Source: Lumbricus rubellus (lineage: Eukaryota > Annelida > Clitellata > Crassiclitellata > Lumbricidae). From it: DNA of 64,000 nucleotides. Under the pieces are notes generated by a model that saw nothing but the letters and a program-made list of their open reading frames with translations, did no database searches and was not told the origin of the DNA. The position numbers were made by a program, and so were the translations under genes. Shown in pieces: positions 13,819-63,659 of the stretch; the stretch's first letter is position 1, and each line of letters starts with the position of its first letter. The stretch is from contig OX243819.1 of assembly GCA_945859605.1 (NCBI GenBank), forward strand, positions 3,112,537 through 3,176,536, in the 5' to 3' direction.

Positions 13819-15371
13819 GTAGGCATCGAATCGTTTGTTGTAATTTACAGACAGGGGAAAGAGAATAGAGCAAAGTACTGGAAGCTCAGAGGACATATAC
13901 ATATATCTCGCCAGATGATGTCAGCATCAAATGACGACATCAATGAGTCACCGCCCCGAACTCCGGGCTGACAGGCCATTTGCCGCCAAAATGTGCCACA
14001 AATATACAAATAATTTGCTCCAAAGGTCAACGCCAACAATAATAATAAGCTACATATCATAGGATGAGTTACATTTTAATTGCATGGAACTGTGCTATAG
14101 AACCACACCGCACAGGAATGTTTAATAATATCTAATAGAAGGTACCTAATAAAGGTAAAATACTGTTCGTTCAATGTATGCATTGCAGTAGGCCTAGGTC
14201 TCTGTTCCGTAGTTAAGCTTTTTGTTGTTTTTTCATAATTTGCTTGCGACTCAGCAGCTTCGAGCTTTTCAGTTTCTCCTTATTTTGTTGTGTTTTTTCT
14301 TCCGTTTTCTAGCATAAGTTTCTTGATTGTGCTTTGTCACTTTTGTCAATCACTATGTTGATTTTGCAAAGATTTCGTCATGGCCACATCAAATCGTCAA
14401 CTCAATATAGGCTATTAGTTGGTGTACCTAGACAGCGGGGTTATTTTATCCCTTTAAGGCCTCTCATTTTTGTAACCAATGAGCAAGATGCAGGCCCGCC
14501 GACAGAAATTCCGGGCCCCTGGGCTGAGCAGTCACGGGCCCCTAAACTATCTTCATGCTTTTTGACCACAAAATTTCAATAAAAATAAATAGAAATTACA
14601 ATAGTGTGGGTACGAATTAACGATAATGCATTATGATCCATGATGTGCCATGAGGTCCTGTATGCACTTTGGTGTTGGGGGAGTTTCTCACTTCCAATCG
14701 GTCAGTGGGTCCCTGGACATGAAAAATCACCGAGGTGCTTGTCCGCCATGACGGCACGAATGACGTAATTGACAAATCCAATATGGCCGCCGTCGGCCAT
14801 ATTGGAAAATTCATCATCTTCATTTCTTACAGCATATGCACGTGCAATACCTCTAATGGTACTGATTCAGGTATGCAGAATTCATTTATAATATTGTTTT
14901 TGTCATCACGGGTCATCTTGAGGTCATAATGTCATGTTCAAGGTCATTTTTTCATCTTTTTCATTTCTTACAGCTTATGCACGTGTAATACCTCTAATGG
15001 TACTAATTCAGGCATGTAGAATTCATTTCTGATATTGCTTTTGTCATCAGAGGTCATCTTAAGGTTCTAGAGGTCAAGGTCAAGGTCACCGAGTTTCATC
15101 GTTTTCATTTATTACAGCAAATGCATGTGTAATACCTCTAAAGTTACTGATTCAGGTATATAGAATTCATTTCTGATACTGTTGTTATCATCCGGGATCA
15201 TCTGAAGGTTATAAGGTCATGGCCAAGGTCATTTGTTGCATCAATGATGTCGATTATAGCTTGAATGAATGCAGAAGTATAAACAGCTGTTATAGCTTTA
15301 ATTGAACAAACGTAGCTAATTATGACATGTTAGAAGTCAATGCTGCTTTAATATGTCATTTTCAGTGCATC

Positions 15372-17704: not shown

Positions 17705-18172
17705 GTGATGCACGGAAAAATGACATATTAAAGCAGCATTGACTTCTAACATGTCATAATTAGCTACGTTTGTTCAATTAAAGCTATAACAGCTGTTTAT
17801 ACTTCGGCATTCATTCAAGCTATAATCGACATCATTGATGCAACAAGTGACCTTGGCCATGACCTTATAACCTTCAGATGATCCCGGATGATAAAAACAA
17901 TATCAGAAATGAACTCTATATACCTGAATCAGTAACTTTAGAGCAGGGGTGTCAAACCTTTTTGAGTGGCGGGCCAGTGTGAACATCTTCCGACAAGTGG
18001 CGGGCCAGGGTGTCGAAGCTCCTGAGCAAAATTAGGTAGTGATCTGAGAGGGACTTCCGGGCTTGGTCAGCCAATCCCAGAACATTTTCAATAATATAAG
18101 TTTTAAGTAACTTTCATAATTTGTTTTAACAGACAACCAACCGGAAACCATAGATACACTGATTTTATGTTG

Positions 18173-18404
18173 CGGGGCGCGGTGGTGAACGTAGCAGGTA
18201 TGTTCGTCGCCTTGCAGCCGAAAGGTTGCAGGTTCGAATCCACCTCAAGTCCCTGCGTAGGGACCTTGGGCAAGTCCTTCACTCTCAACTATTGCTCAGT
18301 GCTTCGGCGTGAAACTCTGATGCGGTGTTCGCACTGTGGTCGGGAGCGCCTCTGAGTAGTGCGCTTGAAGGGGGGAAATAACAAGTGCACACACAAACAA
18401 TACA
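18173..18404 (+). repeat. tRNA-derived SINE inside composite copy 1
   Basis: The head contains a box-B-like 'GGTTCGAATCCACCTC' preceded by 'GCGCGGTGGT'. The body is shared with the SINE at 24598-24815 ('GACCTTGGGCAAGTCCTTC', 'GCTTCGGCGTGAAACTC', 'GGGAGCGCCTCTGAG'). Confidence 0.75.
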
Positions 18405-18414
18405 CAGTCTACAC

Positions 18415-18746
18415 CAGTGGTTCCCAACCTTTGTTGACTCATGGGGCCACTTTTTCCAAGTTGGAGGACAGGATGGCCACTTTTTCTTAGTTGAAGGACA
18501 TTATAGGGGGGGGGACAAGGCTAAAATTTAATATAAAATTGTTGCAATTGGTTTAAAATAGAATGTTTGATGTTATTTATAGATGCAAAAATAACATAAT
18601 TTTTAATATAAAAATAATTGTGTTCCATCCTGTCCAAATTTTCAATGTTTTCATATAGTTATGTTTGCTAATTATTTGAGAGATGAGGGCCATTTTAGGC
18701 CTGGCGGGCCACTTTTGGCCCGCGGGTCACGGTTTGGGAACCGCTG
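18415..18746. mobile_element. nested hAT MITE in composite copy 1
   Basis: Ends 'CAGTGGTTCCCAACC' and 'GGTTTGGGAACCGCTG'. The duplication GTCTACAC is at 18407-18414 and 18747-18754. 332 bp, no coding capacity. Confidence 0.88.
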
Positions 18747-19839
18747 GTCTACACAGAGCTGTGAGTCTGTAAGAATAAGCCTCTATGCATTTGGCGCTGA
18801 CTGCAAAATATAAAAAGGTGAACTTTTATCCTATAATTTTGTAATCTTTAGGGAAGTCTTCGCGGGCCAGAAATAAATCGTCGGCGGGCCAGAAATGGCC
18901 CGCGGGCCAGCTCTTTGACATCCCTGCTTTAGAGGTATTACACATGCATTTGCTGTAATAAATGAAAACGATGAAACTCGGTGACCTTGACCTTGACCTC
19001 TAGAACCTTAAGATGACCTCTGATGACAAAATCAATATCAGAAATGAATTCTACATACATGAATTAGTACCATTATAGGTATTACACGTGCATAAGCTGT
19101 AAGAAATGAAAAAGATGAAAAATGACCTTGAACATGACATTATGACCTCAAGATGAACCCTGATGACAAAAACAATATTATAAGTGAATTCTGCATACCT
19201 GAATCAGTACCATTAGAGGTATTGCACGTGCATGTGCTGTAAGAAATGAAGAAGATGAATTTTCCAATATGGCCGACGGCGGCCATATTGGATTTGTCAA
19301 TTACGTCATTCGTGCCGTCATGGCGGACAAGCACCTCGGTGATTTTTCATGTCCAGGGACCCACTGACCGATTGGAAGTGAGAAACTCCCCCAACACCAA
19401 AGTGCATACGGGACCTCATGGCACATCAAGGACTATTATATATAGGCCTACATTTATGATTTTAAACAGTTCTTGATGTTAAGAATTTAATTTTCAAATA
19501 ATTATATGGTAATCAAAAACCAGCCTTTCTGGATTTAACTGCAGCAAAATCGTTTATAAAATTATCCTGGTATAGTTCTCCATTTTATTACCCTAAAAAT
19601 GCGGTTAGAAAAGGTCTTTCTTCATCGCTTGGAAAATTGTCCAGGTGTCTTGCAAGATCGTTTCTTATAATATTATAGTAGCCTATTATAATTAGGCTAC
19701 ACTGTCTGAATCCTTTGTGTAAGTGCGGGCCTTGGCGGTAGAGTGCCGAGATCGAAACCAGTCCAGGCCTATTTACAGCTCTAGTCCTATTTAATTTCAG
19801 CATTTTCATAAGTCTTGTTTATAATGTCATCTTTTAGAA

Positions 19840-20823
19840 CAGGGGTGTCAAACCTTTTTGAGTGGCGGGCCAGTGTGAACATCTTCCGACAAGTGGCGGG
19901 CCAGGGTGTCGAAGCTCCTGAGCAAAATTAGGTAGTGATCTGAGAGGGACTTCCGGGCTTGGTCAGCCAATCCCAGAACATTTTCAATAATATAAGTTTT
20001 AAGTAACTTTCATAATTTGTTTTAACAGACAACCAACCGGAAACCATAGATACACTGATTTTATGTTGCGGGGCGCGGTGGTGAACGTAGCAGGTATGTT
20101 CGTCGCCTTGCAGCCGAAAGGTTGCAGGTTCGAATCCACCTCAAGTCCCTGCGTAGGGACCTTGGGCAAGTCCTTCACTCTCAACTATTGCTCAGTGCTT
20201 CGGCGTGAAACTCTGATGCGGTGTTCGCACTGTGGTCGGGAGCGCCTCTGAGTAGTGCGCTTGAAGGGGGGAAATAACAAGTGCACACACAAACAATACA
20301 CAGTCTACACCAGTGGTTCCCAACCTTTGTTGACTCATGGGGCCACTTTTTCCAAGTTGGAGGACAGGATGGCCACTTTTTCTTAGTTGAAGGACATTAT
20401 AGGGGGGGGGGACAAGGCTAAAATTTAATATAAAATTGTTGCAATTGGTTTAAAATAGAATGTTTGATGTTATTTATAGATGCAAAAATAACATAATTTT
20501 TAATATAAAAATAATTGTGTTCCATCCTGTCCAAATTTTCAATGTTTTCATATAGTTATGTTTGCTAATTATTTGAGAGATGAGGGCCATTTTAGGCCTG
20601 GCGGGCCACTTTTGGCCCGCGGGTCACGGTTTGGGAACCGCTGGTCTACACAGAGCTGTGAGTCTGTAAGAATAAGCCTCTATGCATTTGGCGCTGACTG
20701 CAAAATATAAAAAGGTGAACTTTTATCCTATAATTTTGTAATCTTTAGGGAAGTCTTCGCGGGCCAGAAATAAATCGTCGGCGGGCCAGAAATGGCCCGC
20801 GGGCCAGCTCTTTGACATCCCTG
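19840..20823. mobile_element. composite hAT-like element, copy 2
   Basis: 984 bp; the same ends as copy 1. The duplication TTTTAGAA is at 19832-19839 and 20824-20831. It contains the same SINE and a nested MITE at 20311-20643 with the same GTCTACAC duplication. The only length difference I see is one base in a G run. It inserted into the outer hAT element. Confidence 0.88.
20311..20643. mobile_element. nested hAT MITE in composite copy 2
   Basis: Counterpart of 18415-18746, with identical ends and the same flanking GTCTACAC. It was therefore inherited with the composite rather than inserted separately. Confidence 0.85.
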
Positions 20824-25361: not shown

Positions 25362-25553
25362 AGTAGAACAGGAAGAAGGCATTTGACTCATTTGACCGAA
25401 ATAGCCTTGAGCTCGGACAATTTGACCAGTATAGCCTTGAGCTCGGACAATTTGACCAGTACAGCCTTGACCTTCGCCCATTTGACCAGTACAAGCCTAA
25501 AAAAACTGAGTGCCCGCGCAGTTTGACCAATATAGCCTTACTTTTTCAAATTC
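25362..25553 (+). repeat. Polinton 1 left terminal inverted repeat
   Basis: 192 bp matching the inverse of 42852-43045. The only length difference I see is 7 against 9 As in one run. Inside are two to three copies of a unit of about 30 bp: 'GCCTTGAGCTCGGACAATTT' plus GACCAGTATA. Confidence 0.95.
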
Positions 25554-26611: not shown

Positions 26612-27547
26612 TCACAATGTTACCAAGTCTTCATTTTCGATCCACGAGTTGAACGAGGCTGGGTAGCCCAACCACTTCACGAGACATTTCTTCCCGCGTT
26701 TCCTAATCACTTTTTCGATTCTAAATATTTCTTGAGTTGTTTTCTGTAGCTCCTGCTCATAGAATGACCCCTGTATTTCCTCAGAATTAGAATCAGTGAT
26801 TTTGTAAGTTGGCGGATCTGTATATTGAACTTGAGATACTACAAAAACCTCCTCCACCCATCTAGTCGTATAACCCTTTTCAAAAATGTTCTTCTTCCTA
26901 GTTATTCTGACTCGATCGCCGATTGTAAACTTTGGTGTAATAGGCTCTGAAATCTCATCGCCGTATAAATTCATAAATACAGTCTTTTCGTTCACTTTCA
27001 TACTAGCCTTCGTGGGGGTCATTTTGATCGAAGAATGTCTCGTGTCATTATAATTACTAACCATCTCATCTAATACATCGATATATCTTCTTGTTGAATT
27101 AGCCGTAAAGTATTTGAACATCTTCTCTTTCATCGTACGCACCCATCTTTCTACGATACAAGATTTTCCCTCGTTCTCGGTAGAATACAACTCAACTAAA
27201 TTCTTCACATTTTTATTATAAAATTCTTTCCCTTTGTCGCACCAAACTTTCGATGGCTGTCGACCGCCTCCGAGTATCTTCGCGAACCCATCGGCTGTAG
27301 ACTCGCCACTCTTGTCATGTACTGGAACGATCCATCCGTATTTCGAAAACACATCTATGACGGTCAATAGAAATTTCACGCCATCATTATCTCCGGCGAA
27401 GGCTTGCATGTCGATTAGGTCAGCCGCCCAAATCTGGTCAATCCCGCCAACGCGGACCCGCCTCGTCCTAAAATTTCTCACTACTGGTTTGTGTAATTCA
27501 TTCGCTAATTGATTAGTCCATTTCAGGTCCTGCTGTAATTCGGGGCT
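26612..27547 (-). CDS. INT: Polinton integrase (rve, DDE) with C-terminal chromodomain; no ATG
   Basis: A retroviral-type integrase that would insert the linear element DNA with 6-bp duplications. Core residues: 'WAADLIDMQ' (first Asp), 'VWCDKGKEF' (second Asp), 'CIVERWVRTMK' (Glu). The C-terminus is a chromodomain ('FRIEKVIRKRG..CLVKWLGY...SWI'), which could steer insertion to marked chromatin. The frame has no ATG: the first possible codon after the upstream stop lies within the PLA2 gene, and the sequence 'LQQDLKWTNQLANELHKPVV' is encoded upstream of any start-like codon. Coordinates given begin at the codon entered after a -1 slip at 27547-27553. The usual N-terminal zinc/helical domain of Polinton integrases is absent. 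Product of the inferred fusion with PLA2: about 484 residues. Confidence 0.9.
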   Translation of the reverse strand, partial: SPELQQDLKWTNQLANELHKPVVRNFRTRRVRVGGIDQIWAADLIDMQAFAGDNDGVKFLLTVIDVFSKYGWIVPVHDKSGESTADGFAKILGGGRQPSKVWCDKGKEFYNKNVKNLVELYSTENEGKSCIVERWVRTMKEKMFKYFTANSTRRYIDVLDEMVSNYNDTRHSSIKMTPTKASMKVNEKTVFMNLYGDEISEPITPKFTIGDRVRITRKKNIFEKGYTTRWVEEVFVVSQVQYTDPPTYKITDSNSEEIQGSFYEQELQKTTQEIFRIEKVIRKRGKKCLVKWLGYPASFNSWIENEDLVTL

Positions 27548-28065
27548 TTTTTTAAACCCAAACCTAGGCTTGTTTTAGCTGACAAGATGGGTTTGACTAT
27601 CGCCCTCTCTACGCGTTCCCGCAAGCTTGGATTAGGTATATTATTCAACTGGTTTATCATTACTCTATCAGCGACATTCCTAGAAGCCGTATCAGTGTGT
27701 TGATTGTATGCCAGGTCGTGAATATATGCCGCGCTATCTACCCTGTTTATAGGTTTGCTCCAATCTTTGGGGGTTTCGTTGGGATTCAGACGCAAATCTA
27801 GTCTAGTACCGGGACCTGTAAACTGATGGCCTGGCAAATGTAATTCGCCCGGAAATTTAGCCCAAGGTAATTTAATGTTGCTAGTGGCAGCGTTCAGCGA
27901 ACTAACTAGATCCCCACCTTGCGCAACAGCGGACGCCTTCACGAATTGAGTTTTTGTTTTCCCGCATACGACGCAAACACCTCTGAGCATCGATCTCCCA
28001 TTATTAGCCACGGCGTTCTGCACATCTGTCGTCTGGGTCTGTTTTTTACATTTTACGCAATACAT
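27523..28065 (-). CDS. PLA2-like virion protein with zinc ribbon
   Basis: 180 codons from the ATG at 28065. That start is chosen because it matches element 2 and directly follows a short divergent promoter; the open frame itself runs further upstream, into the ATPase gene. Residues 1-45 hold a zinc ribbon ('CVKC...CVVC', DUF5679-like). Then comes a parvovirus-type phospholipase A2 fold: 'LPGHQFTGPGTRLDLRL' (calcium loop) and 'AAYIHDLAY' with the catalytic His-Asp. Similar domains in parvoviral VP1 break endosomal membranes during entry, and the same role is inferred here. It is followed in the -1 frame by integrase. Confidence 0.85.
   Translation of the reverse strand: MYCVKCKKQTQTTDVQNAVANNGRSMLRGVCVVCGKTKTQFVKASAVAQGGDLVSSLNAATSNIKLPWAKFPGELHLPGHQFTGPGTRLDLRLNPNETPKDWSKPINRVDSAAYIHDLAYNQHTDTASRNVADRVMINQLNNIPNPSLRERVERAIVKPILSAKTSLGLGLKKAPNYSRT
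27547..27553 (-). promoter_or_regulatory. putative -1 ribosomal frameshift site, A AAA AAA
   Basis: Read on the minus strand in the PLA2 frame the codons are TTA AAA AAA GCC, giving the slippery heptamer A AAA AAA. A -1 slip here enters the integrase frame directly. The zero frame ends only eight codons later, at 27523. I did not establish a downstream stem or pseudoknot. The equivalent site is conserved in element 2. Confidence 0.6.
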
Positions 28066-33034: not shown

Positions 33035-34339
33035 ATGCAATCATCTGATATTCTGAGATTTACCGAACAACCATTGAGCGATGAAAGCGTCGAACGCTAC
33101 GAATGGTACGAGTATGAGCCGATATCGGGGGCGAATCTAAACACCTCCGGCGAGATTAGAATAAACATCGAACTTCAAGATCTATTTTGCCATCCATCAG
33201 AATCTTACCTGTTGTTCGAGGGTAGATTGATGAAGGCGACCAACCCCGGCACCTTCTACGTCAATGCCGATGAAGCAACTCTTACGAATAATGGGCTCAT
33301 GCATCTTTTCAGTCAAATTTCGTATTCCCTGTCGAATCAGGAAATTGAATCGTTATTTCACCCAGGCCAAGCAACGACGATGCTGGGATTACTCAAATAC
33401 CCGAATGATTTTCAACTAGCTCAAGGTCTGAATCAGTTGTGGTACAAGGACAGCGGGGCGACGGCTGATAGCGTGAATAATCTAGGTTTCGCCGTGAGAC
33501 AGTCGTATATAATTCAAAAACCAAATGCCAAAGGTACTTTTAGCTTTGTAGTTCCATTGAAGCATATTTTCGGATTTTGCGATGATTACGACAAGGTTGT
33601 TTTTGGTGTGAAACATACGCTAACTCTGGTTCGTAAAGCCGATGATGACGCAATTTTTAGATCAGCCGCCGCGGGCGCATTGGTCGCAGGGAAAGTGAGA
33701 GTAGATAAAATCTCGTGGTTCATGCCGCACGTTATTCCCGCGGATATGGAGAAGATGCAATTGTACAAAACTATCGAATCGAAAGCGTCGCTGCCAGTTG
33801 CGTACAGAGCCCGTCAATGCGATACCACCTCCGTCGCACAGTCGACTAATTTTAGCTGGAGACTTAGCGTCAAGACATTACCTGAGAAGCCTAGGTACAT
33901 CATCTTGGGTTTTCAAACCGACAAAAGCGGCGATCAAGAACAAAATCCATCAGTTTTCAATCATTGCGATCTGAAGAACATGTTCGTGATGATGAACCAG
34001 GACCGATATCCGGTTGTCGACTACAACCTATCATTTCCGAATCAACAATTCGCGCGGGCGTACCGAGCAGCAGCCGCGTTCAGTGAAAAATACTATGGAA
34101 TGGACGAACTAATGACGCAATGCAATATCACGCCCTCGGACTTCAAAGATCTGTTTCCGATTATGGTGTTTGACGTGAGCAAGCAATCCGAGCGTCTGAA
34201 GTCATCGGTGGTCGATATCCAGATCAAAGGCACGTTCAATACGGCGCCGCCAGCTAATACGGAAGCGTACGCAGTGGTGATTTCAGACAAGTTACTGAGG
34301 TTTCAATCGGACGGACAGAAAATGAGCGTGGTATATTGA
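33035..34339 (+). CDS. major capsid protein (double jelly-roll, hexon-like)
   Basis: 434 codons, the typical length of the Polinton PY/MCP family. The start 'MQSSDILRFTEQPLSDESVE' and the blocks 'GQATTMLGLLKYPNDFQLAQ', 'LKHIFGFCDDYDKV' and 'KISWFMPHVIPADMEKM' are shared with element 2. Trimers of this protein would form the icosahedral shell; Polinton MCPs are modelled as tandem jelly rolls. The frame is fully open here, whereas the element 2 gene is disrupted. It converges with the first fibre gene, 65 bases downstream. Confidence 0.9.
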   Translation: MQSSDILRFTEQPLSDESVERYEWYEYEPISGANLNTSGEIRINIELQDLFCHPSESYLLFEGRLMKATNPGTFYVNADEATLTNNGLMHLFSQISYSLSNQEIESLFHPGQATTMLGLLKYPNDFQLAQGLNQLWYKDSGATADSVNNLGFAVRQSYIIQKPNAKGTFSFVVPLKHIFGFCDDYDKVVFGVKHTLTLVRKADDDAIFRSAAAGALVAGKVRVDKISWFMPHVIPADMEKMQLYKTIESKASLPVAYRARQCDTTSVAQSTNFSWRLSVKTLPEKPRYIILGFQTDKSGDQEQNPSVFNHCDLKNMFVMMNQDRYPVVDYNLSFPNQQFARAYRAAAAFSEKYYGMDELMTQCNITPSDFKDLFPIMVFDVSKQSERLKSSVVDIQIKGTFNTAPPANTEAYAVVISDKLLRFQSDGQKMSVVY

Positions 34340-34404: not shown

Positions 34405-35139
34405 CTAAGGTCGTAACCATGCCGCTGAAAATTCGCGAACAAAAATATTTACCGGATCAAACGAACTAATAAATATCTCGAGATAATCAGTATTAGTTAA
34501 TCGAACTAGGCTAGTGCCCGACACAAATTTTTTCGACCCGGCCTTACCCCCGCCGCCGACAATCAGCTCGTTCACGCCTCCACTTTTGTACAAGCCAACA
34601 GTTTCGTTATATTTACCACTACTGTCGCGTATTTCCAAACACGCCGCAACCATGTAACAGCCGGCTTTCCGAGGAAGGAAACGGTTCGAATTGACTAGAC
34701 AATTATCCGGATCGAATTTTACAGCTCCAAATGATACTTGCGTTATTGTGTTAGCGATGATAGCCTGAGCCGAGAGGGCGTAAACACTAAACGCCGGGCC
34801 AAATGCGACCTCAGCAGTGGGTGTAGGCGCTATCGAAGCAATTCGTTCGTCCACGTATTTTTTATTCGTCAAATGATTATCGTTTGACGGAACGCCCGTG
34901 TGATTCGTAATCAAATCTATAGCTTGTCCCCAACTTAGCGCTTCATCCATTCCCGCGTCCGGATTATTCGTTATTGGCAGGCCTTTGATGCAGTTGCCAT
35001 TCATATTTAGATTCCCAGTCGCCGGATTTGCCCCATCCAGCCTTAGAAAAGTACTGTTTACTTGGGACAGCGTAACGCCCCCTGCAATTATTCTTTGAGT
35101 AGATCCTGAATCTGTATGTCCAAATTTATCAACAGGCAT
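34405..35139 (-). CDS. fibre-like protein with C1q-like head (copy 1)
   Basis: 244 codons. The N-terminus 'MPVDKFGHTDSGSTQR' is invariant among all four fibre genes in the window. Then come phage-tail-fibre-like repeats ('LRLDGANPATGNLNMNG', 'HLTNKKYVDE'). The C-terminal 130 residues have C1q/TNF-type jelly-roll features ('FGPAFSVYALSAQAI', 'FLPRKAGCYMVAACLE', 'NIFVREFSAAWLRP'). A trimeric receptor-binding spike is inferred, the N-terminal anchor playing the part of the penton-binding tail of adenovirus fibre. Confidence 0.72.
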   Translation of the reverse strand: MPVDKFGHTDSGSTQRIIAGGVTLSQVNSTFLRLDGANPATGNLNMNGNCIKGLPITNNPDAGMDEALSWGQAIDLITNHTGVPSNDNHLTNKKYVDERIASIAPTPTAEVAFGPAFSVYALSAQAIIANTITQVSFGAVKFDPDNCLVNSNRFLPRKAGCYMVAACLEIRDSSGKYNETVGLYKSGGVNELIVGGGGKAGSKKFVSGTSLVRLTNTDYLEIFISSFDPVNIFVREFSAAWLRP

Positions 35140-35164
35140 TTTGAATATAATAATTTTTATTAAT

Positions 35165-35896
35165 TCAGGGTCGTAAGAATGCCGCCGAAAAGTCCCTACA
35201 CAAAATGTTCGTAGCGATGGATGAAAAGGCGTGTATGTTGACGTAATCGAACTCGTCTAGAAAAACTATGTTACTACCGATTGAATGGTTTTGCGAACCT
35301 TTCGTACTCCCTCCACCCGCAATTTGCATGTACGACGCCCCATTTTTATACAGGTGGACGGTGCCATACGCGGTATTACTATTGTTACAAAATTCTATGT
35401 ACGCCGAAACGATATAGTACCCGGCTTTACTAGGGAAGAAAGAAGTCGTTCCGATACCCTGTTCAATACCGTGTTTTGCGGTACCACATCTTATTACGTC
35501 AAAAGTAACTGCTGTGTGAGTTCTAGCGAGTATAGCCTGTTGAGTTGAACTGTAAGCGCTAACGGCGGGTCCTACTACTGCCGCCACTTTCGAAGTAAGT
35601 TGTTCATCGACGTATTTCTTATTCGTCAAATGATTACTGTCGGTCGGGACGTCGTCGTGATTCTGCAGTAAATCTATTACTTGCCCCCGACTCACAGCCT
35701 CATCTATTCCCGCTTCCAGAGTATTCGTTGTAGACAGACCTCTAATAGTATGACCACTCATATTTAGGCCGCCAGTCGCCGGGTTTGCTCCATCCAGCCT
35801 TAGAAAAGTACTGTTTACTTGACTTTCAGTAACTCCTCCAGCAATTACTCTCTGCGTAGATCCTGAATCTGTATGTCCAAATTTATCAACAGGCAT
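35165..35896 (-). CDS. fibre-like protein with C1q-like head (copy 2)
   Basis: 243 codons, a tandem paralogue of the previous gene with a 25-base gap. The anchor and repeat region are near-identical, while the head is clearly divergent ('GPAVSAYSSTQQAILA', 'FFPSKAGYYIVSAYIEFCNN', 'NILCRDFSAAFLRP'). Two fibres with different heads in one element would allow alternative attachment, as in adenoviruses with two fibres. An AT-rich tract precedes the ATG. Confidence 0.72.
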   Translation of the reverse strand: MPVDKFGHTDSGSTQRVIAGGVTESQVNSTFLRLDGANPATGGLNMSGHTIRGLSTTNTLEAGIDEAVSRGQVIDLLQNHDDVPTDSNHLTNKKYVDEQLTSKVAAVVGPAVSAYSSTQQAILARTHTAVTFDVIRCGTAKHGIEQGIGTTSFFPSKAGYYIVSAYIEFCNNSNTAYGTVHLYKNGASYMQIAGGGSTKGSQNHSIGSNIVFLDEFDYVNIHAFSSIATNILCRDFSAAFLRP

Positions 35897-42851: not shown

Positions 42852-43045
42852 GAATTTGAAAAAGTAAGGCTATATTGGTCAAACTGCGCGGGCACTCAGT
42901 TTTTTTTTAGGCTTGTACTGGTCAAATGGGCGAAGGTCAAGGCTGTACTGGTCAAATTGTCCGAGCTCAAGGCTATACTGGTCAAATTGTCCGAGCTCAA
43001 GGCTATTTCGGTCAAATGAGTCAAATGCCTTCTTCCTGTTCTACT
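42852..43045 (-). repeat. Polinton 1 right terminal inverted repeat
   Basis: 194 bp, the inverse of the left terminus. Just inside, 42805-42842 holds about five copies of a (TTTTTTAC)-type unit absent from the left end. Confidence 0.95.
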
Positions 43046-49970: not shown

Positions 49971-51044
49971 TCAAGGTCGTATGAATACTGCCGAAAAGTC
50001 TCTAGCTAATATATTTAGTGCGTTGTGTGAAAAAACGAATATCTCGAGAAAATCGGTGTTGGTTACAAAAACTATGCTACAACCGGTTGAATTGTTATGC
50101 GCAGCTCCCGTACCCCCTCCGCCCGCAATTTGCATGTAATTCGCTCCATTTTTATACAGGTAGACGTTACCATGAGCGGTATTAGTGTCACAAAATTCTA
50201 TATACGTCGAAACCAAATAGTATCCGGCTTTTCCGGGAGTGACACGAGTCAGTCTCGTACTTATGCCAGCATCGGTTTTGAATCTTTCATTATCGAAAGA
50301 AACTCTTGTGTGAGTTTTAGCGTCTATGGCTTGACGAGTGAAAGAATGAATGCTAAGCGCGGGACCGATTGAGATAGAATCTGCATACTGCTTCGTAGCT
50401 GCATCGCTGGCGCTGTTGGGTTTGTGTAGACCTGTAATGTAACCATCATGCATAAAGATGGTTGTATGCACATTTATTTGAGATGAAATATTGTATTGCG
50501 TCGACTTAACCATCTCTAACATGATTTCATTGTTTATTCTAAAACGAAATCCATCCATCGATTGTAATGTAATAGGATTGTTTAACGAACATTGTAGTTT
50601 ATTTCGTATACTACCTAAGAAAATAGTGAATTCTTTATTATCTCCTCTCAAGTCCTTACAACCCATTGAACGCAGACGATCGGAGCCAACGTTTAAGAAT
50701 AGATCACCAGTCATTGTATCACCAGTCTTAGCCACCTTCGATGCAACTTGTTCATTAACGTATTTCTTATTCGTCAAATGATTATCGTTGGACGGAGAAT
50801 AGTCGTGATTCGTTATCAAATCAATGGCTTGACCCCAACTTAAAGCCTCATCCATTGCTGCTGTCAAAGGTTTCGTTGTTGGTAGTCCTTTAATTTTGTG
50901 ACCACCCATTTTTAAATTTCCAGTCGCGATGTTTGCTCCATCCAATCGAAGAAAACTCTCATTTATTTGACTAAGAGTAACACCTCCAGCGATTACTCTT
51001 TGTGATGAACTAACATCGGTGTGACCGAATTTATCGACAGGCAT
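49971..51044 (-). CDS. fibre-like protein with C1q-like head
   Basis: 357 codons. The 'MPVDKFGHTDVSSSQRVI' anchor is followed by 'LRLDGANIATGNLKMGG', a 'KTGDTMTGDLFLNVG' block like phage fibre repeats, 'SASDAATKQYADSI', and a C1q-like head ('IGPALSIHSFTRQAI', 'VTPGKAGYYLVSTYIEF', 'NILARDFSAVFIRP'). It is longer than the element 1 fibres because of the extra central shaft. It is probably a virion spike. Confidence 0.72.
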   Translation of the reverse strand: MPVDKFGHTDVSSSQRVIAGGVTLSQINESFLRLDGANIATGNLKMGGHKIKGLPTTKPLTAAMDEALSWGQAIDLITNHDYSPSNDNHLTNKKYVNEQVASKVAKTGDTMTGDLFLNVGSDRLRSMGCKDLRGDNKEFTIFLGSIRNKLQCSLNNPITLQSMDGFRFRINNEIMLEMVKSTQYNISSQINVHTTIFMHDGYITGLHKPNSASDAATKQYADSISIGPALSIHSFTRQAIDAKTHTRVSFDNERFKTDAGISTRLTRVTPGKAGYYLVSTYIEFCDTNTAHGNVYLYKNGANYMQIAGGGGTGAAHNNSTGCSIVFVTNTDFLEIFVFSHNALNILARDFSAVFIRP

Positions 51045-51074
51045 TTTATATATAATAATAATTTTTAATGCAGA

Positions 51075-52178
51075 TTAGTCATCGTATACATATAATTGCA
51101 TTACCTGAATCCCTCGTGGAGAAAAATCATCCACTTGCGTTGATGTAACTCTGTAATATTGATACGCACCCGTAGGTCTAGTAATATTACAAAATTTCAG
51201 AACAGCCGGTGGATTCGTTGAAGAAGGGTATATGGGTAATTTTTCAAACACTACTCCATCATTGCTAGCGTCAAAATCGAAATTAGATACAGATACGGTT
51301 TTCATTGCAATTCTCCAAATTTTAACTGGCTCAGGACATTTAATTTGTAACCAAGCCATTACTTGACCTGAATTCCAAGCTGTGTTAACATCGTCCTTGA
51401 GATTAGTGAAAGCATGGTAGGCTTTGCTTCCGGATAAACACTCACTGGCACTAGCAACGAATCCTGTCACACTTACATCAGCTTCCAAGGGAGGAATATA
51501 CCCAACACGACACTTTTTCAGAGATTCATCGACGTAATTCTTTGTAGCAGCATCTTGAGCTAAAAGAGGATCGCTTAAATCGTTGATATTATTACTATTC
51601 ATTAGGATATTTTGGTAAACGTCGATTTTTCGATCGTTAGACGCTCTACCGATTCTCATTATATTTTCTACGCCTATTTTGCATAGAAATCCATCCGTCG
51701 ATTGTAATGTAATAGGATTATTTAACGAACATTGTAGTTTATTTCGTATACTACCTAAGAAAAAAGTGAATTCTTTATTTTCTCCTCTCAAGTCCTTACA
51801 ACCCATTGAACGCAGACGATCGGAGCCAACGTTTAAGAATAGATCACCAGTCATTGTATCACCAGTTTTAGACACTTTCGAAGCATCAACGTATTTCTTA
51901 TTCGTTAAATGATTATCGTTGGACGGAGAATCGTTGTGATTCGTTATGAAATCTATGGCTTGCCCCCTACTTAAAGCTTCATCCATTCCGGCAGTCGAAG
52001 TATTCGTTACTGGGAGACCTTTTATCACACATCCATTCATATTTAGATTTCCAGTCGGCAGATTTGTCCCATCCAATCGAAGAAAATTAGCATTTACTTG
52101 GCTAAGAGTAACACCTCCAGCGATTACTCTTCGTGATGTTCCTCCAGCAGCGGTGTGACCAAATTTATCGACAGGCAT
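51075..52178 (-). CDS. fibre-like protein with discoidin (F5/8 C)-like head
   Basis: 367 codons. The same anchor ('MPVDKFGHT') and a shaft almost identical in DNA to the neighbouring gene (51695-51870 against 50565-50740). The last 140 residues are unrelated to C1q: 'GSKAYHAFTNLKDDVNTAWN', 'AWLQIKCPEPVKIWRIAMKT' and 'YQYYRVTSTQVDDFSPRGIQ' match discoidin-type galactose/phospholipid-binding domains. This is a head swap on a fixed shaft. Confidence 0.72.
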   Translation of the reverse strand: MPVDKFGHTAAGGTSRRVIAGGVTLSQVNANFLRLDGTNLPTGNLNMNGCVIKGLPVTNTSTAGMDEALSRGQAIDFITNHNDSPSNDNHLTNKKYVDASKVSKTGDTMTGDLFLNVGSDRLRSMGCKDLRGENKEFTFFLGSIRNKLQCSLNNPITLQSTDGFLCKIGVENIMRIGRASNDRKIDVYQNILMNSNNINDLSDPLLAQDAATKNYVDESLKKCRVGYIPPLEADVSVTGFVASASECLSGSKAYHAFTNLKDDVNTAWNSGQVMAWLQIKCPEPVKIWRIAMKTVSVSNFDFDASNDGVVFEKLPIYPSSTNPPAVLKFCNITRPTGAYQYYRVTSTQVDDFSPRGIQVMQLYVYDD

Positions 52179-56788: not shown

Positions 56789-58091
56789 TTAAATCAATTT
56801 TCCATACACTACACTCATTTTCTGTCCATCCGATTGGAACTGCAGCAACCTATCTGAAATTACGACAGCATACGCTTCGGTGTCGGCTGGCACTGCTGCA
56901 TTGAAAAGAGCCTTAATCTGAATATCAACGACTGACGATTTCAAACGCTCGGATTGTTTGCTTACATCGAAGACGAACAACGGATATAATTCTTTATAAT
57001 CTACAGGTGTTATATTTCCTTGCGTGATCAACTTATCCATACCATAGAATTTTTGACTAAAGGAGGACGCGTCTCTGTACGCTCTGGAGAATTGTTGATT
57101 AGGAAACGACAGGTTATGGTCGCCAGCTGGATATCTTTCTTGATTCATCATCACATATATGTTCTTAAGGTCGCAGTGATTAAATAGCGACGGATTACTT
57201 TCCTGATTACCGCTACGGTCCGTCTGAAATCCTACGATGATATATCTAGGTTTCTCCGGTGATGTTTTAACGCTCAGACGCCAGCTGAAACTTGTTGACT
57301 GGGGAACTGTTATCGTGTCGCATTGACGAGCTCTATACGCAACTGGCAACGTTAATTTCGATTCAATCGTCTTATACAACTGCATTCGTTCCATATCGGA
57401 AGGAATAACGTGTGGAATAAACCATGAAATTTTGTTTATCGCAACTTTTCCAGCAGCTGCAGCTGCAGCGTTATCTCGGAATATTGCATCATCGTCGGCT
57501 TTACGAACTAATGTCAGCGTAAATAATCTTGTCGTAATCATCGCAAAACCCGAAAATATGCTTCAACGGAACAATAAAGCTGAACATTCCTTTAGTGTTT
57601 GGTTTGCGAATGAGAAAGCTTTGTCTAGTGGCAAATCCGGGGTTGTCCGCAATAACAGCAGTCGCTCCAGTGTCTTTATACCACAGCTGATTTAAGACTT
57701 GAGTCAGCTGAAAATCGTTTGGATACGTAAGTAAACCGAGCATCGTTGTAGCTTGACCCGGATGAAATAGCGTTTCGATTTCTTGATTAGATAACTGATA
57801 GGATATTTGACTGAATAGATACATAAGCCCATTATTCGTAAGAGCGACTAAATCGGCATTAACGTATGCGGTGTCATCGGTTTTAATTAGTCTTCCTTCG
57901 AATTGTAGATATGACTCTGCTGGGTGACTGTATAAGTCTTGTAATTCAATATTTATTCTTATTTCACCAGAACTGTTAAGGTTAGTTCTCGCTACAGGTT
58001 CGTACTCGTGCCATTCGTATCGCTCGATACCTTCATCGATCAATGGTTGCTCTGTGAATCTTAGAATATCGGATTGCATTTTATTATACAT
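56789..58091 (-). pseudogene. major capsid protein gene, disrupted by a short deletion
   Basis: Homologous to the 434-codon capsid gene of element 1. The N-terminal frame runs 58091 to about 57530 and ends 'CDDYDKIIYADISS'; the C-terminal frame 57541-56789 resumes at 'LTLVRKADDDAIF'. Comparison with element 1 shows about 14 bases missing near 57520-57530, which shifts the frame. All other conserved blocks ('GQATTMLGLLTYPNDFQL', 'KISWFIPHVIPSDMERM') remain. Either this copy cannot make its own shell or the assembly has an error. Confidence 0.88.
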
Positions 58092-61406: not shown

Positions 61407-62182
61407 TTATTTAATGTAAAATGTATCTAATCCAGATCTGTACCTGCCCTTATTTGTTTTACTAGTAAGGTCTATAACCACAAAACCATGCGTTTCATCC
61501 CACGCAGTTTTGCATAGTTTTCGAAATTCTTCAATAGTCATATCATCTACGCCTATATGATCGCTGTAGATAAGATTAATATTTTTAGGTCTTGAGGGAA
61601 TAGACATATAAAGTTAGCATTCTCTCTTATAGTTTGTCTAGGCAGCTTGAAATAATTTTGTGCTAGGTAAAAGCAGTCTACATTACTATGCCTACCTCTT
61701 ATATAATACGATTCACATTTATTCTGCTTCTCTAATTGTAAGTCGTCGAAAATCATGAGATTCTTTTTATCTCGACTTAAGTCTCGTGGATCTGGAACAT
61801 CTTCCGAAGTTTCAAAGAACTTGCAGTCTATATCCGATTTCTTTTCCATGTTTTTAGACATCTCCTCGACTACGGCGGTCGGTGATACATTTAATTTCAT
61901 TATCTCATCGCGATTATCAAAAAGTCTTATAATTGCTTCCTTTGGTAATTTCTCTTCGAATGCTTTCTTTAGTATCTTGTATTCTGGTTGGAAAAGTGAT
62001 TTACCGAAGATCTGTAAGTTATCATAGTCTAACCAACCAGGTCTCAGTAATAAATTAAGTAGTAAAGTTGTTTTACCGCATTGAGACTTACCGACGATCA
62101 AACCTCTGATGCTTCTTGGTAGGAGAGGACTGTTAAAGCGTTTACTTGATTCTTCATTCCACGATAGGTCTTGGACTTCCAT
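61407..62182 (-). pseudogene. ATP: packaging ATPase with a one-base frameshift
   Basis: Walker A 'GLIVGKSQCGKTTLL' and Walker B 'LMIFDDLQ' are intact in the frame 62182 to 61553. After 'ENANFICLFPQDLK' near 61590 the reading changes: the remaining C-terminus ('IGVDDMTIEEFRKLCKTAWD' onwards) is in the next frame (61607-61407). Comparison with element 1 places a single missing base in a run of As. This could be genuine decay or a homopolymer sequencing error. Confidence 0.88.
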
Positions 62183-62202: not shown

Positions 62203-62742
62203 ATGGAGCACAGCTCGTATTGCGTAAAATGTAAACGAAAAACTGACTGTAGAGATATTCAACGAGTCGTCAGTAAGAATGGTAGATCTATGCTTAGATG
62301 TATATGCGTTGAATGTGGCGCTAGAAAAACTCAGTTTACTAAAATGTTCACTACTGTACAAGGTGGTGATTTGGTATCAGCTCTCAATTCTGCTACTTCT
62401 AATATTAAACTTCCATGGGCAAAGTACCCGGGTGAAATACATCTTCCAGGACATTCTTTCACGGGTCCAGGAACTCGATTGGATTTGCGATTGAATAGTG
62501 ATGGAACACCAAAAAATTGGAGTAAACCAGTAGACAGAGTTGATGCAGCAGCCTATCGTCATGACCTAGCCTATGCTAAACATACTGATACAGCAGGGAG
62601 AAACGTCGCTGACAGAGCTATGATAGATGAATTAAATAATATACCTAATCCTTCGTTCCGCGAACGAATTGAACGATCTATAGTAAAACCAATATTATCG
62701 ACGAAGACCCATTTTGGAATGGGGTTGAAAAAAAAGCTCTGA
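62203..62742 (+). CDS. PLA2-like virion protein with zinc ribbon
   Basis: 179 codons. Zinc ribbon 'CVKC...CVEC'; PLA2 calcium loop 'LPGHSFTGPGTRLDLRL' and catalytic 'AAYRHDLAY'. The zero-frame stop at 62740 follows the slippery run by one codon. Close homologue of the element 1 gene; zero-frame lengths 180 and 179. Confidence 0.87.
   Translation: MEHSSYCVKCKRKTDCRDIQRVVSKNGRSMLRCICVECGARKTQFTKMFTTVQGGDLVSALNSATSNIKLPWAKYPGEIHLPGHSFTGPGTRLDLRLNSDGTPKNWSKPVDRVDAAAYRHDLAYAKHTDTAGRNVADRAMIDELNNIPNPSFRERIERSIVKPILSTKTHFGMGLKKKL
62730..62736 (+). promoter_or_regulatory. putative -1 ribosomal frameshift site, A AAA AAG
   Basis: In the PLA2 frame the codons are TTG AAA AAA AAG CTC TGA, giving the classical slippery heptamer A AAA AAG two codons before the stop. 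A -1 slip continues straight into the integrase frame, which is open from 62673 and has no ATG. Confidence 0.65.
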
Positions 62743-63659
62743 GATGGACAGACCAACTTGCTGACGAATTGCATAAACCTATAGTCAGGAAGTTCAGGAA
62801 GCGAGTTGTTTATGTGCAGGGAGTGGACAAAGTTTGGGCGGCTGACTTGATTGACATGCAGGCTTATGCTAAATTTAATTCTGGTGTGAAATATTTGTTA
62901 AGCGTCATTGATATATTCTCCAAGTATGCATTTATTCAGCCGTTAAAAGATAAGCGCGGAGAATCTGTGGCAGATGCTTTCGTTAAAATATTTAATACGA
63001 GCAAAAGAAGGGGTGAAAAACTTTGGGTTGATAAGGGAACAGAATTCTATAATAAACAGGTAAAATCATTAGGTATGCAGTTGTACTCAACTGAGAATGA
63101 AGAGAAATCTTGTATCGTAGAAAGATTTAATAGAACAGTGAAAGAGAAAATGTTCAAATATTTTACAGCAAATTCAACTCATAGATATATCGATGTTTTA
63201 GATAATATGGTTAATTTATACAACACCACAAGACATTCTTCCATAAAAATGACTCCTGTTAAAGCGAGTGTTAAAGCAAACGAATGGGTTGTGTGGATGA
63301 ATCTGTATGGTGATGCTGTACCTGAAACTGTTAAACCTAAATTTTCGGTAGGAGATAAAGTAAGAATTTCTAAGAAGAAAAAGACATTCGAGAAAGGTTT
63401 CACTCAAAGGTGGACACAGGAAATTTTTACTATAACACACATTCAATACACAGACCCAATAACCTATAAAATATCTGACTATCATGGAGAAGAAATAAAA
63501 GGGACATTTTATGAGCCTGAGCTACAATCGACAACGCAAGATACATTTAAAATAGAAAAGATTATTAGGAAACGTGGAAACCGATCATTGGTGAAATGGT
63601 TAGGGTATGATGAGTCATTCAATTCATGGATTGATAATAAAGACTTGATATCATTGTGA
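62736..63659 (+). CDS. INT: Polinton integrase with chromodomain; no ATG
   Basis: About 307 residues after the presumed slip. 'WAADLIDMQ', 'LWVDKGTEF' and 'CIVERFNRTVK' carry the D,D,E triad; the C-terminal chromodomain is 'FKIEKIIRKRGNRSLVKWLG' with 'SFNSWI'. The conserved lead-in 'ALRWTDQLADELHKPIV' is upstream of any start-like codon. Inferred PLA2-integrase fusion 485 residues, against 484 in element 1. The frame is intact. Confidence 0.9.
   Translation, partial: ALRWTDQLADELHKPIVRKFRKRVVYVQGVDKVWAADLIDMQAYAKFNSGVKYLLSVIDIFSKYAFIQPLKDKRGESVADAFVKIFNTSKRRGEKLWVDKGTEFYNKQVKSLGMQLYSTENEEKSCIVERFNRTVKEKMFKYFTANSTHRYIDVLDNMVNLYNTTRHSSIKMTPVKASVKANEWVVWMNLYGDAVPETVKPKFSVGDKVRISKKKKTFEKGFTQRWTQEIFTITHIQYTDPITYKISDYHGEEIKGTFYEPELQSTTQDTFKIEKIIRKRGNRSLVKWLGYDESFNSWIDNKDLISL

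Follow-up and report, generated by a model that had tools for sequence, protein, structure and literature searches.

Probable −1 recoding between a zinc-ribbon/PLA2-like protein and an integrase in Polinton/Maverick-type elements of an earthworm genome

The window, a stretch of 64,000 nucleotides from the Lumbricus rubellus genome, contains two related elements, here called element 1 and element 2. The mitochondrial COX1 protein of this genome shares 97% identity with its counterpart in Eisenia nordenskioldi and 96% with the one in an Amynthas species, as expected of an earthworm. Near the right-hand end of the window, element 2 carries two overlapping genes that are read in different frames. 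Their layout is as follows.

62203–62742, plus strand: ORF1, 179 aa, zero frame, with DUF5679 and the PLA2-like domain PF08398
62218–62337, plus strand: DUF5679 zinc ribbon, ORF1 residues 6–45 (41.1 bits, cut-off 27)
62434–62685, plus strand: PLA2-like domain PF08398, ORF1 residues 78–161 (40 bits, cut-off 23.9)
62673–63659, plus strand: ORF2, integrase (rve) with a C-terminal chromodomain-like stretch, −1 frame relative to ORF1
62673–62742, plus strand: ORF1/ORF2 overlap, 70 bases including the ORF1 stop and 67 without it
62730–62736, plus strand: slippery heptamer A AAA AAG, in the zero-frame phase X XXY YYZ
62740–62742, plus strand: zero-frame stop TGA, overlapping the −1-frame CTG codon at 62739–62741
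62744–62746, plus strand: first AUG past the ORF1 stop, in the third frame, opening a six-residue ORF
62856–62858, plus strand: first ATG of the integrase frame, six codons past the AAD motif

The integrase frame is open from 62673 and closes with the stop codon at 63657–63659. At the junction the zero-frame codons read TTG AAA AAA AAG CTC TGA, with TGA as the second codon after the heptamer, and the phase and position of A AAA AAG given in a preliminary description of this DNA were therefore correct. The matches of ORF2 to rve (28.7 bits, E 1.6e-6) and to Chromo (19.7 bits, E 8.1e-4) lie under the curated cut-offs of 32.6 and 25.1 bits, respectively. ORF1 contains the stretches TGPG and HDLAY, which we take to be motifs of the PLA2-like domain, and the AAD motif of the integrase is presumed to be the site of the first catalytic Asp. 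A search of the PDB sequences with ORF1 returned no relative at E up to 0.1.

Judged by its gene content, element 2 is of the Polinton/Maverick type, with a predicted double-jelly-roll capsid protein, a Pox_A32-type ATPase and the integrase. The first two genes, and the element 1 partner of the capsid stretch, are located as follows.

61407–62182, minus strand: packaging-ATPase (Pox_A32) gene, adjoining the ORF1/ORF2 pair; frame broken in the window copy
56789–57541 and 57501–58091 (span 56789–58091), minus strand: capsid gene of element 2 (PF21738), split over two frames
33035–34339: single 434-aa ORF of element 1, inverted-repeat partner of the element 2 capsid stretch

PF21738 matched consecutive parts of the element 2 capsid at 152.3 and 28.6 bits (cut-off 27), and PF04665 matched the packaging ATPase at 28.8 bits (cut-off 22.8). 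A 1225-aa ORF of element 2, inspected for a protein-primed DNA polymerase B, had a weak match to Endonuclease_7 alone (20 bits, cut-off 23.6), and no adenovirus-like protease was matched among the ten element ORFs scanned. Repeated, mutually similar ORFs of about 243–367 aa occur in both elements, at 34405–35896 and 49971–52178 (minus strand), and were apparently duplicated within the element; the two in element 2 had no Pfam match at E up to 0.1. Element 1 has 144-nt inverted arms that are 100% complementary and 17.4 kb apart, and the perfect complementarity of the arms at its ends (25362–25553 and 42852–43045, 144 + 55 nt) indicates that its insertion was probably recent. For element 2, the interval 43100–64000 holds two weak inverted pairs (35 nt at 74% and 25 nt at 80%), and the window may end before the element does. 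Elsewhere in the window, 17937–18805 and 19833–20702 are direct repeats with a spacing of 1.9 kb whose reported stretches are 100% identical, and related inverted copies lie around 14630–15362.

The counterpart of the gene pair in element 1 comprises the following features.

27523–28065, minus strand: counterpart of ORF1 of element 2
27550–27556, minus strand: heptamer T TTA AAA, read from 27556 down to 27550, with A AAA AAA next, in phase
26612–27550, minus strand: integrase from slip to stop, −1 frame

By codon count, the fused product would have 178 + 307 = 485 residues in element 2 and 172 + 312 = 484 in element 1; these lengths, and the overlap coordinates, stood as first described when recounted. 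The same description had the two elements differing in base composition and in most amino acids. The former is true of the gene pair (GC 0.428 versus 0.366), but the latter is not, since the elements are 72% identical in the amino acids of ORF1, 70% from the conserved Trp of the integrase to its first ATG and 66% in the remainder. Synonymous divergence between families 1 and 2, to which the two elements belong, is saturated, and in the Trp-to-first-ATG stretch the families show 12/4/23 differences by integrase codon position.

How surprising is the slippery run? With the codon usage of the gene and the final 12 residues of ORF1 taken as given, the chance of an in-phase heptamer is P 0.74 in element 2; in element 1 it is 0.44 for the last 12 amino acids and 0.10 for the last 8. 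The heptamer, which had been offered as evidence of selection, is by itself within chance, given the lysines of ORF1. Moreover, little can be read into the lack of synonymous change in the Lys codons of the run, because 29 of the 38 other AAA codons of the pair were equally invariant (70 copies, hand count). Chance does not account, however, for the phase that the copies have in common or for the change of the constrained frame. As element 2 is also partly decayed, with its capsid and ATPase genes both broken, this single copy is insufficient and the case rests on other copies.

To obtain family 2, the 787-Mb genome was searched with the element-2 integrase, yielding 132 matches, the best of 3373 candidates. 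Of the junctions in these best matches, 121 were in the −1 phase, 9 in the other shifted phase and 2 in one frame. The element-1 integrase gave 135 matches for family 1; 40 junctions were read, and 37 of these sampled copies were in the −1 phase. The first 20 had been chosen with odd open-frame lengths over-represented and comprised 17 in the −1 phase, 2 in one frame and 1 other (16/2/2 by an earlier method, which read one locus differently), and the second 20, drawn from across the list, were all in the −1 phase. These copy counts rest on the best-scoring matches, not on every genomic copy, and they bear out the earlier statement that the −1 phase is retained in both elements. ORF1 was 185–186 aa long in copies with the other shifted phase versus 177–179 aa in the −1 copies. 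A third search, which used a one-frame relative as the query and gave 100 matches, favours one-frame copies and was not used for frequencies; of 12 fused-looking copies picked from it, 10 were in one frame and 2 in the −1 phase, and the 8 unfused-looking ones divided into 6 in the −1 phase and 2 other. One-frame copies occur in both families. An assembly error as the source of the frame break was rejected, as the arrangement is common to copies on many contigs.

The phase was then mapped on trees of the copies. On a tree of 78 family-2 copies, 8 phase changes fell on terminal and none on internal branches; internal branches make up 0.743 of the total length of 2.179, and the chance of no internal change is 0.036. 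The 8 changes compare with a mean of 7.9 for shuffled labels, the deviating copies being scattered rather than clustered. Larger trees, which include the picked one-frame copies, use a few hundred bases and are supportive only, had 20 terminal and 2 internal changes (117 copies) and 23 terminal and 3 internal changes in small mixed clades (192 copies; internal/terminal lengths 1.263/1.460). In each tree the reconstructed root was in the −1 phase. The sampling is sparse, with 192 copies set against thousands of candidates.

The frame of constraint was determined in an alignment of the 70 family-2 −1 copies with long sequence (of 80, 8 other-phase and 2 anchor-less copies were left out), in which changes on internal branches were counted by parsimony and by codon position. 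Upstream of the run (62676–62724), zero-frame changes were 0/0/27, all at the third position. From the run to the first in-frame ATG (62737–62856), changes were 1/2/37 in the −1 frame, so that 37 of 40 were at the third position. The corresponding counts were 83/23/318 for the remainder of the integrase and 90/42/231 for ORF1. Terminal branches were looser in the run-to-ATG stretch (13/10/46), as expected of inserted, decaying copies. This flip of the third-position pattern from the zero to the −1 frame indicated that the selected protein in the spreading lineages changes frame at the run. In family 1, the distance from the anchor to the zero-frame stop is 4 codons in 22 of 39 copies, 10 codons in 12 and 16 codons in 5, and such wandering indicated that past the run the zero frame is no longer constrained.

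The preliminary description had drawn selection from the retained phase, the absent ATG and the slippery run. The retention of all three, together with purifying selection that switches frame, upholds that conclusion, but the heptamer alone does not. It had also named a lack of synonymous constraint in the overlap among the findings that would refute it, and upstream of the run such constraint is indeed lacking: zero-frame third positions vary at 0.094 in 62673–62727 versus 0.079 in 62203–62727. That comparison is an unfair test, as ribosomes are not required to read the −1 frame ahead of the slip. In this genome, the copies compared give good support to selection for the −1 arrangement.

These data bear directly on the idea that the break is an A-run indel in an ancestral one-frame gene that has been copied passively, the copies being pseudogenes or served in trans. 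One-frame relatives are indeed known, homopolymers are indel-prone, other phases occur, and the element 2 in the window has further broken genes. However, constraint flanks the run along the internal branches of the −1 copies, and the arrangement is common to two families whose synonymous divergence is saturated. The ATPase gene beside the pair served as a control for decay. In 20 long family-2 loci the ATPase was in one frame in 18, and its two breaks, one of them in the element 2 of the window, were private and lay at different places; of these 20 loci, 16 had the PLA2/integrase pair in the −1 phase, 2 had it in the other shifted phase and 2 had it in one frame. Furthermore, passive copying predicts a neutral integrase N terminus or deep one-frame lineages, and neither was seen among the sampled copies. 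We thus consider passive copying very improbable. Still less credit, close to none, can be given to a small intron that removes the frame break. Although the host is a eukaryote, zero-frame conservation ends at the run and −1 conservation resumes 3 codons (family 2) or about 10 codons (family 1) further on, which would leave no room for an intron at the junction, and this candidate was rejected.

An in-phase slippery heptamer was found in 116/121 −1 copies of family 2 and in 36/37 of family 1. The family-2 copies carried A AAA AAA (68), A AAA AAG (40), A AAA AAC (8) or none in phase (5); the A AAA AAG singled out in element 2 is thus present and in phase but is a minority form. In family 1, T TTA AAA occurred in 35/37 −1 copies, and one of the 37 had no in-phase heptamer. 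Most family-2 −1 copies have A runs of 8–9, and these raise the alternative of transcriptional slippage, in which RNA polymerase would slip at these As and some of the mRNAs would code for a one-frame fusion. The run length clearly mutates and the phase differs at the tree tips, both of which would suit that mechanism, and it would fit family 2 nearly as well as ribosomal slippage does. It would fit family 1 less, where the run is shorter and sits within T TTA AAA, a canonical ribosomal site that polymerase slip does not need. On balance we regard transcriptional slippage as improbable.

RNA folding downstream of 62736, which had been proposed as a check, gave no convincing stimulator. The z-scores for 60, 90 and 120 bases past the slip were −1.49, −0.82 and 0.02 in element 2, and +0.98, −1.38 and −1.59 in element 1; no clear or common stimulatory structure was found by pseudoknot-free folding within these 60–120 bases in either element. 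For 60 bases, 9% of the windows of the gene fold as well as element 2 does. The element-2 hairpin begins at 62753, 16 nt past the slip where a stimulatory structure would be expected at 5–9 nt, and is kept in nearly all 70 copies, among which no pair had a compensatory change on both sides.

Relatives from other sources were then inspected. Among the best 120 of 7102 integrase relatives, PF00665 was present in 116 (hand count) and PF08398 was in the same frame in 7 (P0013, P0014, P0024, P0068, P0077, P0107 and P0116); P0026, P0039, P0075 and P0113 were fused or partly so by eye, and nearly all the remaining ones were integrase-only ORFs of about 270–360 aa. As far as predicted proteins go, the one-frame relatives show that the fused order of parts is that of a real protein. 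Thirty of the 120 were JGI-only unfused integrases; 29 of these begin with V or L, in the linker or soon after it, and one begins with M inside the core (hand count). This suggests that a missing AUG may be common among relatives, although the listed starts follow the rules of each gene caller. Integrases from non-JGI sources are listed with an initial M, which does not necessarily reflect a genuine ATG, and some relatives could have real ATG starts. For ORF1, 120 of 400 similar proteins were listed: 2 read into the integrase, 8 had tails in the other shifted frame, 5 had tails in the −1 frame and 104 were uninformative; P0206, flagged by script as a sixth −1 tail, was rejected by eye. Because ORF1 runs longer in the other phase and is then easier to flag, 8 versus 5 is no fair ratio, yet these predicted tails show that the −1 phase is not universal among ORF1 relatives. 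Metagenomic P0171, P0201 and P0209 end in a common tail in which the start of the integrase is read in the other shifted frame; they perhaps represent a lineage with a different recoding phase. Nine protein pairs compared for phase had no overlap to read. No relative was found in scans of viral contigs, with each piece and with the alignment, or in a prokaryote genome scan, and a single-sequence AlphaFold model of P0014, which is one of the one-frame relatives, had too low a mean pLDDT (37.6) to be of use.

Where could the integrase otherwise start? Over the sequence covered, an integrase-frame ATG ahead of the core was absent in 166/166 −1 copies, including 8 picked from the search with the one-frame query. 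Plain AUG reinitiation was rejected, as the first AUG that a ribosome would meet past the ORF1 stop is, in both elements, out of frame with the integrase; in element 2, the AUG at 62744 would divert reinitiating ribosomes away from ORF2. At 62739–62742, the −1-frame CTG and the zero-frame TGA form CTGA, which is almost invariant in family 2. The most serious rival is accordingly a separate integrase made from CUG, by a non-AUG start or by termination-reinitiation at CUGA, with no fusion. Two codons ahead of the conserved Trp, CTG is present in 125/127 −1 copies of family 2 (GTG in 1, TTG in 1) and in 34/39 copies of family 1, and the TGA of ORF1 is at the same site in all 127 family-2 copies. 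In addition, metagenomic integrases are called as ORFs of their own, with the V or L beginnings described above. On the other side, the matching codon is CCG in 5/39 family-1 copies, and the four of these whose junctions were read have four different linkers, so that a lineage without the CUG seems to have spread. The variable position of the family-1 stop leaves no fixed stop–start overlap, the first AUG past the stop is out of frame, and the in-phase retention of the slippery heptamer would be left unexplained. A separate integrase is therefore judged unlikely, though less so than the other alternatives.

Taken together, these comparisons make it probable that the Polinton/Maverick-type elements of this earthworm use −1 recoding to produce the zinc-ribbon/PLA2-like protein together with the integrase, and the recoding, if so, is probably ribosomal. 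Most ribosomes would translate ORF1 and terminate at its stop, the default outcome, which would give free PLA2 protein. Some would slip back one base on the run, at A AAA AAR/C in family 2 and at T TTA AAA A in family 1, and would continue into the integrase to make a PLA2-integrase fusion of about 485 residues. We infer ribosomal slippage and the synthesis of both products, in a ratio that is itself of importance. As a counter-point, one-frame fusions are present in some other organisms and in a few of the earthworm copies, which indicates that recoding is not indispensable everywhere. We suggest more tentatively, as one possibility, that a Gag-Pol strategy operates in a DNA virus-like transposon, with much free zinc-ribbon/PLA2 protein and little fusion. 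The integrase might thereby ride on an entry-type protein, perhaps into particles, and one-frame fusions would recur but found no lineages.

Among known proteins, Hydra vulgaris LOC136074287 (P0024) and six metagenomic ones have the same order of PLA2-like part, linker and integrase; the other six relatives with PF08398 listed above also have the zinc ribbon, whereas P0024 is without it. LOC136074287 and the metagenomic fusions are in one continuous frame, in contrast to the −1 break in the earthworm. According to the accessible text of PMC8097293, Polinton/Maverick integrase genes likewise lie alongside a packaging ATPase and jelly-roll capsid proteins, and Mavericks encode capsid homologues, particles not having been observed. 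In that text, however, the integrase is a gene of its own, and neither a PLA2 part nor programmed frameshifting is mentioned. Sf Maverick 1 and 2 of Spodoptera also have a parvovirus-type PLA2 and an integrase with a chromodomain, but their PLA2 is in the capsid-like ORF CAP, apart from INT, and the accessible portion of the article describes no frameshift link (PMC5803895). Adintoviruses, which are related animal DNA viruses, have predicted −1 slippery sites too; in the available part of PMC11071296 these are in other genes, Penton and Hexon-protease, and are KnotInFrame predictions only. No description of a PLA2-integrase frameshift arrangement was found in the accessible portions of the Polinton, Maverick, adintovirus and earthworm literature, which included PMC3671162 and PMC10120064 and lay mostly outside subscription journals. 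We regard the predicted −1 recoded PLA2-integrase as a variation on known Polinton gene organisation that may have been described earlier.

By −1 frameshifting, retroviral Gag-Pol expression yields a structural product and a rarer integrase-bearing fusion from one message. The earthworm pair would resemble it in that a structural or entry-type product and a rarer integrase fusion would come from one message. It differs from Gag-Pol in that the element is DNA, the fusion includes neither protease nor reverse transcriptase, and folding revealed no clear downstream structure. Gene callers that split ORF1 and the integrase in these elements may miss the real protein. If true, the recoded fusion would show how the integrase is dosed and possibly packaged, and would give a DNA element a molecular counterpart of retroviral Gag-Pol.
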